Assembly: GCF_024006985.1 (NCBI RefSeq)
Contig: NZ_JAMXIB010000003.1
Coordinates: forward strand, 186,001-250,000
Reading direction: 5' to 3'
Source of the DNA: Robiginitalea marina
GTDB lineage: Bacteria > Bacteroidota > Bacteroidia > Flavobacteriales > Flavobacteriaceae
DNA length: 64,000 nt
Positions 24,802 to 32,382 of the stretch are shown in pieces (positions within the stretch are counted from its first letter, which is position 1; each line of letters starts with the position of its first letter). The notes beneath the pieces are model-generated. The model ran no database searches. It was not told the DNA's origin and worked only from the letters and a program-made list of their open reading frames with translations. A program made the translations under genes and the position numbers.

Positions 24802-25308
24802 TCAACTTTTTTTGAAGAGGGGTACCGCGGAACAGGCCTCCCCGAACATCACGCTTCTGGCCACATCCTGCAATCGTTGCAGGGACCAGAGGTAAGCCGA
24901 CAGGGGCACGGGGAGCTTACTGCAGCCCTTGATGACCACCGGGCGGTCCCGGTAGGGTTCCAGGTCCAGCTTTTCAAGGCATTCATTGAACAACAGGGTT
25001 TCCATCGCCTCGGAAGACCCCACGACCACTTTCCTGGCCACCGGTTTGAGGTATGAGCCGATCAGCATATAGGCCCACGCGGGTACAATAGCATCTGAAC
25101 TGCACGAAAGCGCTACAAACCCGTCGCGGTAGATTTCCCAGTCATGCGCCTTCAGGGCATTCCGGAATTCTTTTTCCCGCAAGATCAGGCCTTCTTCCAG
25201 CCATTGGCTCAGGTCCACCCGAAAGCGTTGCCCCCGGGGGTAGAGTTCTTCCAGGTCCAGGGTAAGGAGTTTGCTGCCGGCCACCCGGTTGACGATTTCC
25301 TCTTTCAT
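24802..25308 (-). CDS. DUF2480 family protein, end of the SUF operon
   Basis: This is a 168-residue cytosolic protein without membrane segments. It shows the DUF2480 pattern (ALSCSSDAIVPAWAYMLIGSYL; VVGSSEAMETLLFNECLEKL; PVVIKGCSKLPVPLSAY). This family is nearly always the last member of flavobacterial SUF clusters, yet no role has been shown. Two conserved cysteines (in LSCSSD and KGCSKL) could touch metal or a cluster. It starts 12 bases after the sufT-like gene, so it is in the same transcript. Confidence 0.87.
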   Translation of the reverse strand: MKEEIVNRVAGSKLLTLDLEELYPRGQRFRVDLSQWLEEGLILREKEFRNALKAHDWEIYRDGFVALSCSSDAIVPAWAYMLIGSYLKPVARKVVVGSSEAMETLLFNECLEKLDLEPYRDRPVVIKGCSKLPVPLSAYLWSLQRLQDVARSVMFGEACSAVPLFKKS

Positions 25309-25320
25309 ACCGCTTACCTC

Positions 25321-25650
25321 TCAGAGCAATCCCAATTCCAGTTTGGCTTCTTCACTCATGAGATCCTGGGTCCAGGGCGGATCGAAGGTAATCTCCACCT
25401 CGGCATCCTTCACCATATCCAGGGACTTCACCTTTTCTTCCACCTCCACCGGAAGGGATTCGGCCACGGGGCAATTGGGCGAAGTGAGGGTCATCAAAAT
25501 CTTCACTTCCTGGTCTTCATTGACAAAGACGTCGTAGATCAGCCCCAGTTCATAAATATCCACGGGTATTTCCGGGTCGTAGATGGTCTTTAAAACCCTG
25601 ACGATTTTTTCGCCGAGTTCCTGGGTGTCTATTGCCGTGTGCGGGTCCAT
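25321..25650 (-). CDS. sufT: SufT-like iron-sulfur assembly protein (DUF59/MIP18 family)
   Basis: The 109-residue protein has the MIP18/DUF59 core: TIYDPEIPVDIYELGLIYDV, then LTSPNCPVAESLPVEVEEKV with the conserved cysteine, and the terminal TFDPPWTQDLMSEEAKLELG. Relatives help insert Fe-S clusters into target proteins. It follows sufE by 18 bases and precedes the DUF2480 gene by 12. The symbol is given by family and position. Confidence 0.9.
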   Translation of the reverse strand: MDPHTAIDTQELGEKIVRVLKTIYDPEIPVDIYELGLIYDVFVNEDQEVKILMTLTSPNCPVAESLPVEVEEKVKSLDMVKDAEVEITFDPPWTQDLMSEEAKLELGLL

Positions 25651-25668: not shown

Positions 25669-26106
25669 TTATCCCTTCTTTTCGGGCTGCCTTTGTGTTT
25701 CAAAGGCCAGGGCGTAAAGTTTCAGTTGTTTGACCATGCTGACCAGCCCATTGGCCCGGGTGGGGGAAAGGTGTTCCTTTAGCCCGATCTCATCTATAAA
25801 GTCAGTTTTGGCCGCCAGGATGTCGGCTGGTTTCTGGTTGCTGAAGGCGCGGATCAGGATGGCAATAATGCCTTTGGTAATGATGGCATCGCTGTCGGCG
25901 GTGAATACCACCTTGTCGTCCTCCAGGTCGGCATGTACCCAGACCTTGCTTTGGCAGCCCTTGATCAGGTGGTCGTCGGTTTTGTATTGCGCTTCGATCC
26001 GGGGAAGGGATTTCCCGAGTTCGATCATATACTCATAGCGCTGCATCCAATCCTCGAACATCGAAAATTCGGCGATGATATCCTCCTGTATTTCCTCAAT
26101 CTGCAT
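25669..26106 (-). CDS. sufE: Cysteine desulfuration protein SufE
   Basis: SufE takes the persulfide sulfur from SufS and passes it to the SufBCD scaffold. The start at 26106 (MQIEEIQEDIIAEF) places the acceptor cysteine at residue 51 (LIKGCQSKVWV), the same number as in E. coli SufE. A GTG-led extension upstream to 26142 is unlikely. The protein is 145 residues. It lies 69 bases after sufS. Confidence 0.95.
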   Translation of the reverse strand: MQIEEIQEDIIAEFSMFEDWMQRYEYMIELGKSLPRIEAQYKTDDHLIKGCQSKVWVHADLEDDKVVFTADSDAIITKGIIAILIRAFSNQKPADILAAKTDFIDEIGLKEHLSPTRANGLVSMVKQLKLYALAFETQRQPEKKG

Positions 26107-26175
26107 GGCCTCAATTTTTACCAAACTTACAATAAGTCGCACGCATAGTCAACTGCCCGCTCCAAATCTGCCTCC

Positions 26176-27390
26176 TTATGACAGCATTTGACGGGCTTTT
26201 TCGACCCCCGCCACCAGGCGGTCCACTTCTTCGCGGGTGTTATAAAAACTGAAACTGGCCCGTACCGTCCCGGGGATGCGGTAAAAATCCATGATGGGTT
26301 GGGCGCAGTGGTGGCCCGTGCGCACGGCAATGCCCAGTTTGTCCAGGATGGCCCCCACGTCGTACGGATGGATCCCTTCCAGGTTGAAGGAAATCACCGG
26401 GGTCTTCCCGGGGGCCTGCCCAAAGATTTTCAGCCCGTCGATCTGCAGGAGTTCCGCTGTGGCGTAGTCGAGCAATTCGCCCTCGTAGGCGGCAATGCGC
26501 TCCATTCCGATCGCATTCAGGTAGTCCAGGGCGGCCCCGAAGGCGATCCCCCCGCAAATATCCGGGGTGCCTGCCTCAAATTTGTGCGGCAGGGCGGCAT
26601 AGGTTGTTTTTTCGAAGGTTACCTCCGCGATCATTTCACCGCCGCCCTGATAGGGGGGAAGGCGGTTCAGCCAGGCTTCCTTGCCGTAAAGGGCCCCAAC
26701 CCCCGTGGGCCCGCAGAGCTTGTGGGCCGATATGGTGTAAAAATCGGCGTCCAGGGCCTGTACATCGGCTTTGATATGGGGGGCTGCCTGGGCCCCGTCG
26801 ATCAGCACCGCGGCCCCTGCGCTGTGCGATAGCGCGATTAGCTCCTCTATCGGGTTTATGGTGCCCAGGGCATTGGAAACATGGTTGCAGAACACGAGTT
26901 TGGTTCGTTCTGAAAGCCCATCCCTGAAAGGCTGCAGCACCAATTCCCCGTTTTCGTCCATCGGGATGATGCGCAGGATCGCCCCGGTGCGCTCACAGAG
27001 CATCTGCCAGGGCACGATATTGGAGTGGTGTTCCATGGCCGACACCCAGATTTCATCGCCGTTATCCAGGAAAGTGGAAAAACCGCTGGCCACGAGGTTG
27101 ATCCCGTGGGTGGTGCCCGAAGTCATGATGATTTCATGTGCATGGGCGGCATTGAAGTGCTTTTGTATCTTAGTCCGGGCCTGCTCATAGGCATCCGTGG
27201 CTTCCTGCGACAGGGTATGCACCCCCCGGTGGATGTTGGCGTTGTATCGGGAATAGTAATCGACGATTACATCGATGACCTGCCGAGGGGTCTGGGACGT
27301 TGCCGCATTGTCGAGGTAAACCAGCGGGTATCCGTTGACCATGCGGGCCAGGATGGGAAAGTCTTTTCGTATTTCAGCTACATCGAACAT
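26176..27390 (-). CDS. sufS: Cysteine desulfurase SufS (group II)
   Basis: SufS is a pyridoxal-phosphate enzyme that removes sulfur from L-cysteine to give alanine and an enzyme persulfide. PLP binds at K224 in TISAHKLCGPTG. The persulfide cysteine is C362 in RTGHHCAQPIMD, on the short loop that marks group II (SufS) rather than IscS. The 404-residue length is normal. It lies between sufD and sufE in the operon, with gaps of 98 and 69 bases. Confidence 0.96.
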   Translation of the reverse strand: MFDVAEIRKDFPILARMVNGYPLVYLDNAATSQTPRQVIDVIVDYYSRYNANIHRGVHTLSQEATDAYEQARTKIQKHFNAAHAHEIIMTSGTTHGINLVASGFSTFLDNGDEIWVSAMEHHSNIVPWQMLCERTGAILRIIPMDENGELVLQPFRDGLSERTKLVFCNHVSNALGTINPIEELIALSHSAGAAVLIDGAQAAPHIKADVQALDADFYTISAHKLCGPTGVGALYGKEAWLNRLPPYQGGGEMIAEVTFEKTTYAALPHKFEAGTPDICGGIAFGAALDYLNAIGMERIAAYEGELLDYATAELLQIDGLKIFGQAPGKTPVISFNLEGIHPYDVGAILDKLGIAVRTGHHCAQPIMDFYRIPGTVRASFSFYNTREEVDRLVAGVEKARQMLS

Positions 27391-27488: not shown

Positions 27489-28805
27489 TTATAATTCAAA
27501 CCCCAGGCGTACCCCAAGCTTTTGGGCGATCAGTTTATTGATGCGCAGCTTGAGTTCGGGCAGGCGCACGCTTTCCAGGACGTTGTTGGCAAAAGCGTAC
27601 ATCAGCAGGGCCGCCGCTTCCTTTTTGGGGATACCCCTGGCCTGCAGGTAGAACAGGGCATCCTGGTCCAGCTGGCCGATGGTACAGCCGTGGGAACACC
27701 GCACGTCATCGGCAAAAATTTCCAGTTGGGGCTTGGTGTTCACGCTGGCCTTATCGCTGATCAGCAGGTTGTTGTTTTGCTGGAACGCGTTGGTTTTCTG
27801 GGCCAGGCGGTCTACAATGATTTTTCCGTTGAAGACCCCGGTGGAGCGTTCCCCGTATATGCCCTTGTAATCCTGGTGGCTTTCGCAATGGGGTTGCTGG
27901 TGGTGTACCAGGGTATGGTGGTCCACATGCTGTTTTTCCCCCAGGATGGTGACCCCCTTCAGGGTCGATTGGATGTGTTCCCCGTCCTGGTAGAAATTCA
28001 GGTTGTTCCGCGTTAGTTTGCCCCCGAAGGAAAAGGTATGGACACTTACCTGGCTGTTGTCTTTCTGCCTGATGTAGGTGTTGTCGATCAGGCTGGCCGA
28101 TTCGCGGTCATTCTGCACTTTGTAGTAATCCACAATGGCATTTTTAGCAGCGAAAACCTCCGTAACCGAATTGGTAAGGGTTTCGTTCCCGGTAAGGCTT
28201 TGGTGCCGCTCAATGACCTGGAGTTCCGCATTTTCTTCCACGATAATGAGGTTCCGGGGCTGCAGCATCAGGGCCGCTTCATTTCCCGTGGAAAAATGCA
28301 CGATCTCTATGGGCTTCCGCGGGGCCTTGTGCTTTGGAATATAGATATAAGCCCCCTCCCGGGTAAAGGCCGTATTGAGGCTGGTAAGGGTTTCTTCGCG
28401 GGAAGCCGCCTTGTTGAAATAAACGTCGATGATGGGCTTATAAATCGGCTTGCTCAGGGCAGAACTCATCAGGCAGATATCCACCCCGTCGTGGGTGGTC
28501 TCGGAAAGGTAGGAACTGTAAATCCCGTCGATAAAAACGATCTTGTACGTATCTACCTCATGCAGGAAATACTTTTTTACATCCCGGTATTCCAGGTCGT
28601 TGTCCTTTGAGGGAAACAGGCTGAAGTCGACTTTCTGAAGTCGGTCCAGGGAGGTGTATTTCCAGGCTTCCATCTTCCGGTGGGGAAAGCCCTTTTGTTC
28701 AAAGTTCCGTATGGCTTCTGACCGTATTTCATGCACCGGGTTATCCAGGTCTACCTGGTTCTCAAACGCGATAAAGGAAGCGATCAGCTTTTCTTTCAAA
28801 TTCAT
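27489..28805 (-). CDS. sufD: Fe-S cluster assembly protein SufD
   Basis: SufD is the scaffold partner of SufB in the SufBC2D complex. It has the right-handed beta-helix core (TAENAELQVIERHQSL-like repeats) and the conserved C-terminal region DDVRCSHGCTIGQLDQDALFYLQ, then RGIPKKEAAALLMYAFANNV. The start at 28805 (MNLKEKLIASFIAFENQV) gives 438 residues. An upstream ATG at 28847 would overlap the end of sufC. It follows sufC by 42 bases. Confidence 0.95.
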   Translation of the reverse strand: MNLKEKLIASFIAFENQVDLDNPVHEIRSEAIRNFEQKGFPHRKMEAWKYTSLDRLQKVDFSLFPSKDNDLEYRDVKKYFLHEVDTYKIVFIDGIYSSYLSETTHDGVDICLMSSALSKPIYKPIIDVYFNKAASREETLTSLNTAFTREGAYIYIPKHKAPRKPIEIVHFSTGNEAALMLQPRNLIIVEENAELQVIERHQSLTGNETLTNSVTEVFAAKNAIVDYYKVQNDRESASLIDNTYIRQKDNSQVSVHTFSFGGKLTRNNLNFYQDGEHIQSTLKGVTILGEKQHVDHHTLVHHQQPHCESHQDYKGIYGERSTGVFNGKIIVDRLAQKTNAFQQNNNLLISDKASVNTKPQLEIFADDVRCSHGCTIGQLDQDALFYLQARGIPKKEAAALLMYAFANNVLESVRLPELKLRINKLIAQKLGVRLGFEL

Positions 28806-28847: not shown

Positions 28848-29600
28848 TTACAGGACTGCTTCCTGTTTGATCCAGTCATAGCCCTTTTCCTCGAGCTCAA
28901 GGGCCAGTTCCTTGGTGCCGGACTTCGCGATCTTGCCATTGTGCAACACATGCACGAAATCGGGCACGATGTATTCCAGGAGCCTCTGGTAATGGGTGAT
29001 TACAATGACGGCGTTTTCAGGGGTGCGCAATTTGTTCACCCCATTGGCCACGATGCGCAGGGCATCGATATCGAGGCCGGAATCCGTTTCATCGAGGATG
29101 GCCAGTTTGGGTTCCAGCATGGCCATCTGGAAGATTTCATTCCGTTTTTTCTCCCCACCCGAGAACCCTTCATTGAGGGATCGGGAGAGGAACTTGCGGT
29201 CGATATCGAGCAGTTCGGCTTTCTCCCGGATCATCTTGAGCATCTGGTTGGCGGGCATTTCCTCCAGGCCCCTGGCTTTGCGGGTTTCGTTGATCGCCGT
29301 GCGGATAAAATTGGTGACCGTTACCCCCGGGATTTCCACGGGATACTGGAAGGAGAGGAAAATCCCTTTATGGGCCCGCTCTTCAGGGGCCATATCATCG
29401 AGGTCTTCCCCATCAAATTCGATCTTCCCACGGGTAATTTGGAAGTCCTCCCTTCCGGCTATCACAGAAGCCAGGGTACTTTTACCCGAGCCGTTGGGGC
29501 CCATGATGGCATGGATTTCTCCGGGGTTTACTTCCAGGTTGATCCCTTTCAGGATCTTTTTGTCCTCTACACTGGCGTGCAGGTTTTTTATTTTCAACAT
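28848..29600 (-). CDS. sufC: Fe-S cluster assembly ATPase SufC
   Basis: SufC is the soluble ABC-type ATPase that drives SufBCD. Walker A is [16 protein letters not shown], the family signature is [15 protein letters not shown], and Walker B is [16 protein letters not shown], the SUF version with DETDSG. The H-loop is [11 protein letters not shown]. Length is 250 residues. Unlike most SUF operons, it is separated from sufB by an extra gene, with only 5 bases between that gene and sufC. Confidence 0.96.
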
Positions 29601-29605
29601 AGCGA

Positions 29606-30499
29606 TTACTTTAAATAGTTTGGCGCCTTCGGCATTTTTTCAAAATCGTCCCTGCTGTGTTGCAGGATTACCCTCGCCCCTGTCGAATCGGCAAAAGCCT
29701 CAAAGACTTCCATGCTGGCAAGGGTTTGTTTTACATCCGTATTGAAGATGGGGACCCGCTTGTGGAGCCTGTTCAGCGACAGGTGGTACAGGTCACCACT
29801 CAAAAGTATCGGCCCGGCCTCCGGGAGGTTTAGGAACAGGGCGCAATGGCCTGGCGTATGGCCCGGCAGGAACTTGATCACTACCGTCCCGTCCCCGAAA
29901 ACATCGTGGTCCCCGGTAAACTTGCGGATCTTTTTCAGGTCGTTTACCGCATTGTACATGTCGGGTTGCTGTTCCCGCACTTCTTTGCTCATCACCCAGT
30001 CATACTCCTGCTTTTGAACAAGCCAGGTAGCCCCGGGCAGGGCTTCCGCATGCCCGCTATGGTCAAAATGGGTATGGGAAAGCGCCAGGAAGTCAATATC
30101 CTCCGGCGACATCCCTATCTGCGCCAACTGGGTGTGCACGGAATCGGATCGCGACACGGTAAAGCTGCCGTCAGGGGAGGTGAATGGTTCCTTCATGGCC
30201 ACCAGGGCCTCGGAAAGGCCTGCATCCCACATCAGGGTCCCTTTGGGGTGTTGCACCACATAGAAGGCATCAGCAAATTTACTGGTCTGTCCCCGGTAGG
30301 CAGAGTCCTGCGCAAAGAGCTCCAGGTTGTTTACCTGTACGGTGCCCCCGTCGAAGGTATACAGCCTGATCCCGGGTCGCTGCCCGGTACCGGCGTCGGC
30401 CATTGAGAGGTCCTTTGCCCCTCCCTGTTTGCAGGAGGCCAGGGTTGCCAGGAGGGCCATCCCCCCAAAAATTATGTTCAGGCTCAGCTTCATAGTCAT
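29606..30499 (-). CDS. MBL-fold metallo-hydrolase lipoprotein (AHL-lactonase-like) lodged between sufB and sufC
   Basis: The zinc motif [14 protein letters not shown] (HxHxDH) and the further ligands [13 protein letters not shown] and LLSGDLYHL place it in the metallo-beta-lactamase superfamily, nearest to N-acyl-homoserine-lactonase-type hydrolases. The N-terminus is a lipoprotein signal with lipobox LASC, so the enzyme is exported, unlike the cytosolic SUF proteins around it. The start lies 2 bases after sufB and its end 5 bases before sufC; cotranscription is nearly certain. ATGs at 30499 and 30493 are both possible. The substrate is unknown; lactonase activity is a family guess. Confidence 0.88.
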
Positions 30500-30501
30500 G
30501 G

Positions 30502-31947
30502 TTATCCTACAGATCCTTCCAGGCTGATTTCCAATAATTTTTGTGCTTCCACCGCAAATTCCATCGGCAGTTTGTTCAGGACTTCCTTGCTGAAGCCGTT
30601 CACAATCAGGGCAATGGCTTTTTCGGTGTCGATCCCCCTTTGGTTGCAGTAAAAGATCTGGTCTTCCCCGATTTTACTCGTGGTCGCCTCGTGCTCAATT
30701 TGGGCGGTCTTGTTCTTTACCTCGATGTACGGGAAGGTATGTGCCCCGCAACGATCGCCCATCAGCAGGGAATCGCACTGGGAAAAGTTCCTCGCGTTGG
30801 TTGCCCTGGGGTTGATCTGCACCAGGCCCCGATAGCTGTTCTGAGACTGGCCGGCAGAGATCCCCTTTGAAATGATCGTACTGCGGGTGTTTTTCCCAAG
30901 GTGGATCATTTTGGTCCCGGTGTCGGCCTGCTGGTGGTTATTGGTAACGGCGATGGAATAGAATTCCCCGATGGAATTATCGCCTTTCAGGACGCAGGAG
31001 GGGTACTTCCAGGTAATGGCAGAACCGGTTTCGACCTGTGTCCAGGAAATTTTCGCATTGGTTTCGCAAAGGCCCCTTTTGGTGACGAAATTATACACGC
31101 CCCCGCGGCCTTCCCGGTCGCCGGGAAACCAGTTTTGTACGGTGGAGTACTTGATTTCAGCGTTGTCCAGGGCGATGAGTTCCACCACGGCTGCGTGGAG
31201 CTGGTTTTCATCCCGGGACGGGGCAGTGCAGCCCTCAAGGTAGCTCACATAACTCCCTTCATCAGCGATGACCAGGGTGCGTTCGAATTGCCCGGTACCC
31301 GCCTGGTTGATGCGGAAATAGGTCGAGAGTTCCATGGGGCAGCGCACCCCTTTGGGGATATAGCAGAAGGAACCATCTGAAAAAACGGCGGAGTTAAGGG
31401 CTGCGTAGAAGTTGTCTTTCTGCGGCACCACGCTGCCGATATATTTCTGCACCAGTTCGGGGTGCTCCTTTATCGCCTCGGAAATGGAACAAAAGATGAT
31501 CCCTTTTTCCGCCAGGGTCTTTTTGAAGGTGGTGGCGACAGAAACGGAATCCATCACCACGTCCACGGCAACCCCGGCCAGTTTTTTTTGCTCCTCCATC
31601 GGGATTCCCAGCTTTTTGAAGGTTTCCAGCAGTTCCGGGTCCACTTCGTCCAGGCTGTCGTATTTCGGCTTTTTGTTCGGGGCCGAGTAATAAGAGATGT
31701 TTTGGAAGTCGGGTTTTTTATAGCGGATGTTTGCCCACTCCGGTTCCTCCATTTCCTTCCAGGCCTTGAAAGCCTCCAGGCGCCACAAGGTCATCCACTC
31801 GGGTTCCTCCTTCTTTTTGGAGATGGCGATAACGATGTCTTCATTCAGTCCTTTGGGGAAGGTATCCGACTCGATGTCGGTATAGAAACCATATTCGTAT
31901 TCCTTGGTCTCCAGTTCCTTCTTCAGTTCTTCTTCGGTATAAGCCAT
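30502..31947 (-). CDS. sufB: Fe-S cluster assembly protein SufB
   Basis: SufB is the main scaffold on which SUF builds Fe-S clusters. Diagnostic segments are [20 protein letters not shown], with the cysteine that accepts sulfur, and [20 protein letters not shown], with the cluster-ligand cysteine. Its C-terminus reads [20 protein letters not shown]. Length (481 residues) fits. It lies downstream of sufA. Confidence 0.97.
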
Positions 31948-32015: not shown

Positions 32016-32345
32016 TCAGAGGGAGAAACTCTCCCCGCACCCGCAGGTGCGTTGTGCGTTGGGGTTGTTGAACACAAAGCCCTTGCCGTTGAGCCCGCCG
32101 GAATATTCCAGGATCGTGCCCACCAGGTAAAGGAAGCTTTTCTTGTCTACAATGATCCTCACATCGTTGTCCTCGAAAACTTTATCCGTCTCACTCAGGT
32201 CGCGGTCGAACCGCAACTCATAGGACAAACCACTGCAGCCACCGCTTTTCACCCCTACCCGCACATAATCGGTGCTGATGTCAAAGCCTTCCTCCTGCAT
32301 GAGGGAAACCACTTTTTTCCTGGCGGTATCGGAAACCTTGATCAT
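32016..32345 (-). CDS. sufA: Iron-sulfur carrier SufA/IscA (HesB family)
   Basis: This A-type carrier hands Fe-S clusters to target enzymes. The three conserved cysteines are C37 (VKSGGCSGLSY), C101 and C103 (TCGCGESFSL at the very end). Length is 109 residues. It is first in the minus-strand SUF operon, 29 bases downstream of a perfect -7 element, and 68 bases ahead of sufB. No Rrf2/SufR repressor gene is next to it. Confidence 0.95.
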   Translation of the reverse strand: MIKVSDTARKKVVSLMQEEGFDISTDYVRVGVKSGGCSGLSYELRFDRDLSETDKVFEDNDVRIIVDKKSFLYLVGTILEYSGGLNGKGFVFNNPNAQRTCGCGESFSL

Positions 32346-32374: not shown

Positions 32375-32382
32375 CAAATATA
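32375..32382 (-). promoter_or_regulatory. Promoter of the SUF operon (TTG-N21-TATATTTG)
   Basis: On the minus strand a perfect TANNTTTG (TATATTTG) lies 29 bases before sufA, with a TTG 21 bases upstream in the range accepted for the flavobacterial -33 element. This is the only good promoter found for the eight SUF genes downstream. Confidence 0.6.

Follow-up and report, generated by a model that had tools for sequence, protein, structure and literature searches.

A predicted MomL-type lipoprotein lactonase encoded between sufB and sufC in Robiginitalea marina and in many other flavobacteria

The closest described counterpart of the locus considered here is momL of Muricauda (Flagellimonas) olearia Th120, which was found to sit between sufB and sufC (Wang et al. 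2017; PMC5484670). MomL was reported as a secreted activity that degrades acyl-homoserine lactones (AHLs) by hydrolysis of the AHL lactone. The momL and suf transcripts were present at similar levels, and the published co-transcription is based on these similar qPCR levels and not on junction-spanning RT-PCR; joint induction of momL and suf by indole under iron chelation or H2O2 was observed by qPCR and RNA-seq. A co-cultured AHL-using bacterium was put at a disadvantage, a momL deletion could not be made, and the location of the gene in suf was termed unique in 2017 (PMC5484670). MzmL of Mesoflavibacter zeaxanthinifaciens and Aii20J of Tenacibaculum were placed in the same marine lactonase cluster as MomL by published phylogeny, and MzmL was verified as an AHL lactonase (PMC11112094). 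Both MomL and MzmL are efficient AHL hydrolases in vitro (PMC5484670, PMC11112094), and single mutations at MomL residues E238 or L254 lower activity.

The published arrangement was found again, now in another genus, in a preliminary description of Robiginitalea marina DNA that was made from the sequence alone. The stretch analysed is a 64,000-nucleotide segment of contig NZ_JAMXIB010000003.1 (the window). Open reading frames and direct reading of the sequence gave, on its minus strand, the gene order sufA-sufB-[metallo-beta-lactamase (MBL) lipoprotein, 297 aa]-sufC-sufD-sufS-sufE. The run opens with a sufA-type A-domain carrier gene (32016..32345; PF01521; TIGR00049, 112 bits), followed by sufB (30502..31947; NF008773, 921 bits; TIGR01980, 650 bits), the predicted momL ortholog encoding an exported lipoprotein lactonase of the MBL fold (29606..30499; Pfam Lactamase_B, E=1.2e-16), sufC (28848..29600; TIGR01978, 375 bits), sufD (about 27489..28796; TIGR01981, 290 bits), and the cysteine desulfurase gene sufS (26176..27390; TIGR01979, 565 bits), with all of these bit scores lying above their cut-offs. 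The sufE gene (25669..26142; PF02657, E=3e-48) comes next, and the same minus-strand gene run continues with genes for a SufT-like SUF-associated protein of the DUF59 type (25321..25650; PF01883, TIGR02945) and a DUF2480 protein (24802..25308; PF10652, E=2.8e-71). The hydrolase gene is separated from sufB by 2 nt and from sufC by 5 nt; these gaps, the placement between the two genes, and the motif HTHFDHSGH, all given in the preliminary description, were confirmed from the sequence.

The motif HTHFDHSGH occupies residues 142-150 of the hydrolase, whose N-terminus carries a lipoprotein signal with the lipobox L-A-S-C23. In an alignment of 49 MBL orthologs, in which a few species are present twice, Cys23 and all seven metal ligands (H142, H144, D146, H147, H218, D236, and H281) were invariant, pointing to an HxHxDH...H...D...H dinuclear metal site in the window protein. 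The conserved lipoprotein signal supports export, as had been proposed, and argues against the cytosolic Fe-S-related hydrolase that had been named as the alternative. An AF2 model of the protein (pLDDT 85.9, confident from residue 41 onward) gave the AHL lactonases AhlX and AiiA, together with 4-pyridoxolactonase, as top Foldseek matches. These enzymes and AttM/BlcC have the fold and metal site in common with the window protein but bear no lipoprotein signal, whereas the window protein combines such a signal with a suf context. Its identity to the structure-matched MBL lactonases is about 21-26%, none of them above NCBIfam cut-offs. Against the NCBIfam AHL lactonase equivalogs (AiiA, AttM, AhlS, AidB, and YtnP), the hydrolase scored far below every cut-off, with AttM the best (118 bits; cut-off 390).

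The relationship to MomL was established through a 293-aa protein of Flagellimonas (Muricauda) olearia CL-SS4 (L109), which is encoded in the same sufB-sufC slot and is 58.9% identical to the window hydrolase over 292 residues. This protein was taken as MomL at the species level because of its length and because it matches the published MomL at 11 of the 11 residues checked (N51, K82, T84, I144, V149, N179, K205, M228, D232, E238, and L254). By sequence comparison, the window hydrolase is a MomL ortholog, resembling MomL of strain Th120 in the kind of lipobox, in the active site, and in the placement between sufB and sufC (PMC5484670). The species is a different one, however, and two activity-sensitive positions of MomL are changed, E238 to L242 and L254 to Q258 in the window protein, so that the substrate range of the window enzyme may differ from that of MomL. 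By analogy with MomL, whose AHL hydrolysis is published (PMC5484670), AHLs are the likely substrates of the window copy, and the preliminary suggestion of acyl-homoserine lactones fits the family; thioester hydrolysis, proposed alongside it, found no support. Another of the loci compared (L045) encodes, also between sufB and sufC, a protein that shares 52.9% identity with the window protein and has the published MzmL signal peptide at its start. Unlike the window, this slot additionally holds the gene of a small OB-domain lipoprotein, located between the lactonase gene and sufC. Aii20J was not located among the loci compared.

Orthologs of the MBL gene were found in 44 of 397 Flavobacteriaceae genomes, representing 33 of 237 genera (E<=1e-40). 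All but one lie directly 3′ of sufB, 42 with both sufB and sufC as flanks and on the same strand as these, and one at a contig end. A second, named collection, which shares species with the first, gave the same picture: all of the best 80 loci lie directly after sufB (both flanks are present at 79, and the contig ends at one), and the carriers include Robiginitalea, Eudoraea, Maribacter, Muricauda/Flagellimonas, Croceitalea, Aquimarina, Winogradskyella, and Olleya. A search of other Flavobacteriaceae thus returned the gene order of the preliminary description at 43 of 44 family orthologs and at 80 of 80 loci of the second collection, and for this reason the placement is not due to chance. The momL-suf arrangement is not unique to one species, but is conserved across many flavobacteria. 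Beyond the family, 395 class-level genomes yielded one distant MBL (G580), with no suf gene in the 1.5-kb flanks examined. The sole exception among the family genomes sampled is G028 (L055 and L169), in which the MBL ortholog lies away from suf; the sufB-sufC slot of this genome is occupied by the small lipoprotein gene instead. Two further loci showed individual features: in a Croceitalea metagenome-assembled genome (L099), a different predicted protein of about 150 aa is encoded in the gap between sufB and momL, and in L074 (G034), the sufC match contains one in-frame TAA, from either a sequencing error or a broken gene.

The small lipoprotein (about 130 aa) is unrelated to MomL, and its gene lies between sufB and sufC in genomes without momL and in some with it. 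A profile built for it matched 210 of 397 Flavobacteriaceae genomes and 135 of 237 genera, with none in the genome of the window; among 295 class-level genomes, no clear match was found outside the family, the one exception belonging to the same family. The order sufA-sufB-lipoprotein-sufC was present at each of 40 loci sampled down the ranking, and the gene was located at the sufB-sufC junction in L044-L049, L051, L053, L054, L056, L057, L059, L060, L064, L066, L068-L070, L072, and L155-L194. It lies 3′ of momL in Winogradskyella and Olleya, and 5′ of momL in Aquimarina. Nine of 10 members weakly matched the C-terminal OB domain of NlpE (PF17185; best E=6.3e-6). The AF2 model (pLDDT 76) showed a small beta-rich domain, for which all Foldseek matches were weak, including OB folds and NlpE 2z4h/2z4i (TMq 0.36-0.46), with none at E<=0.001, and a sequence search of the PDB returned signal-peptide look-alikes only. 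No description of this lipoprotein in suf was found in the literature searched on suf with lipoprotein or NlpE in Bacteroidetes.

The occupancy of one junction by two unrelated lipoprotein families, together or alone (40 of 40 small lipoproteins sampled and 43 of 44 MBLs), and the resemblance of the smaller one to the NlpE OB domain, raise the alternative that the sufB-sufC junction serves throughout the family as a site for envelope lipoproteins of the stress regulon. According to this explanation, both proteins would serve the cell's own envelope under iron or oxidative stress, in sensing or in the handling of metals or damaged products, and AHL degradation would be a side activity. The efficient AHL hydrolysis by MomL and MzmL in vitro (PMC5484670, PMC11112094) and the weakness of the fold matches of the small lipoprotein, none of which reached E<=0.001, count against it, and this alternative is considered unlikely. 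The occurrence of an unrelated lipoprotein at this junction in a far larger number of genera still argues for the hypothesis, given less than even probability, that SUF may be tied to the envelope by more than quorum quenching.

The distribution within the genus bears on the age of the arrangement. The MBL gene is in the same place in seven of nine other Robiginitalea congeners, and a SufBCD tree puts the two congeners without momL within the carriers, with support of 0.90 for G009 beside the window species and of 1.00 for G002 beside another carrier. In G009 (L061), a 29-nt stretch consisting of the 26 nt before sufC and the sufC ATG is identical at 24 positions to the end of the window gene, and the match covers the last codons and the stop of that gene. 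In a control with 52 other MBL-less loci, the mean was 11.3 of 29 and the maximum was 15. The match is the scar of a momL deletion, and the genus has seen at least two losses of momL, one of which left such a scar. The family-wide slot and the losses among congeners, one of them scarred, therefore indicate an old, retained operon member, and not the recent tolerated insertion that the preliminary description had entertained.

Insertion by recent horizontal transfer in this strain would account for the conflict between the MBL and SufB+SufC trees, which was seen at many supported splits. However, SufB conflicts as strongly with its own partners SufC (r=0.16) and SufD (r=0.17), its distance correlations with MBL, SufC, and SufD all being 0.10-0.17, whereas MBL agrees with SufC (0.56) and SufD (0.59) nearly as well as these two agree with each other (0.71). 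With the placement shared by seven of the nine congeners, and with the two that do not have the gene nested among carriers, one of them scarred, recent transfer retains almost no probability; recent insertion as such was ruled out by the family-wide synteny and the deletion scar. The MBL and suf trees agree in part, and strict vertical inheritance is only partly supported. Because SufB is discordant with all of the others, we do not claim that the block was inherited strictly as a unit. On these comparisons, sufB may have been replaced, with a breakpoint close to the slot. The SufB proteins of L075-L154 fall into two rough groups by identity to the window copy (about 85-88% and 90-94%), which cut across genera.

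The suf operon does tolerate inserted genes. Four-helix-bundle genes, which we take to be of the 23S rRNA intervening-sequence type, were found in single species at the sufC-sufD junction (L086, L114, L130, and L131) and at the sufA-sufB junction (L110, L112, and L153). This tolerance would suit a position without function, in which momL entered early as a neutral insertion, was kept by inertia, and is co-expressed by accident; the two congeners that lost momL with suf undisturbed would suit it as well. The four-helix-bundle inserts are sporadic and occur at varying junctions, however, unlike both lipoproteins: almost every carrier has momL in a single slot, separated from its neighbours by short gaps and with active site and lipobox intact across some 30 genera, and the small lipoprotein was in this slot in every carrier sampled. 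Neutral persistence is accordingly judged improbable.

The reading preferred here, that the window gene is a momL ortholog, a regular member of the suf operon, and the source of an exported lactonase that is co-induced under stress and directed against competitors, is considered highly probable as a whole. Points against it are the changed residues at the E238 and L254 positions, the qPCR basis of the published co-transcription, the low scores with the NCBIfam lactonase models, and the merely partial agreement of the MBL and suf trees. A candidate operon promoter precedes the sufA start by about 30 nt on the minus strand (32375..32382), where TATATTTG matches the Bacteroidota -7 element TAnnTTTG. 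Its assignment as the promoter before sufA is a weak prediction; the full two-part Bacteroidota consensus was not found at TATATTTG, and its single match, at chance level, lies far away. No TAnnTTTG was found between the sufA leader and the hydrolase start, and a promoter of the hydrolase's own was rejected for this reason. An arrangement confined to this strain, with the hydrolase under its own promoter, which the preliminary description had set against its proposal, therefore does not hold.

One transcript starting before sufA would carry sufA-sufB-momL-sufC-sufD-sufS-sufE, and iron shortage or peroxide would raise Fe-S assembly and the lactonase jointly. The lactonase would be exported by Sec, lipidated at Cys23, and held at the outer membrane or released. 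Its two-metal HxHxDH site would open lactone rings, most likely those of AHLs from neighbouring Proteobacteria, and AHL cleavage would weaken competitors during the cell's own stress. In this scheme, AHL hydrolysis, co-expression with suf, induction, and secretion are extended to the window copy from MomL, for which others have demonstrated all four; AHL hydrolysis is published for MzmL as well. The coupling to Fe-S or oxidative-stress demand in the preliminary description stands insofar as the gene lies in the suf transcription unit and the co-expression and induction of its ortholog MomL are published; its purpose, a competitive benefit to the cell, may be supposed, but is unproven even for MomL.

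Published as a peculiarity of a single species, the arrangement proves to be fixed across many genera and is on that account a stable trait of the family. The independent losses within one genus allow comparative tests of the tie between quorum quenching and Fe-S stress. To judge from the second lipoprotein family, SUF would be linked to the cell envelope by more than quorum quenching alone, and the genera that have the small lipoprotein but no momL offer material for testing such a link. Tentatively, and at less than even probability, the sufB-sufC junction may be a conserved place for exported lipoproteins, with the small NlpE-like OB lipoprotein in roughly half of the Flavobacteriaceae and MomL in about a tenth; rather than being simple passengers, the two would form an envelope arm of the Fe-S and iron-stress response with quorum quenching as one of its outputs.
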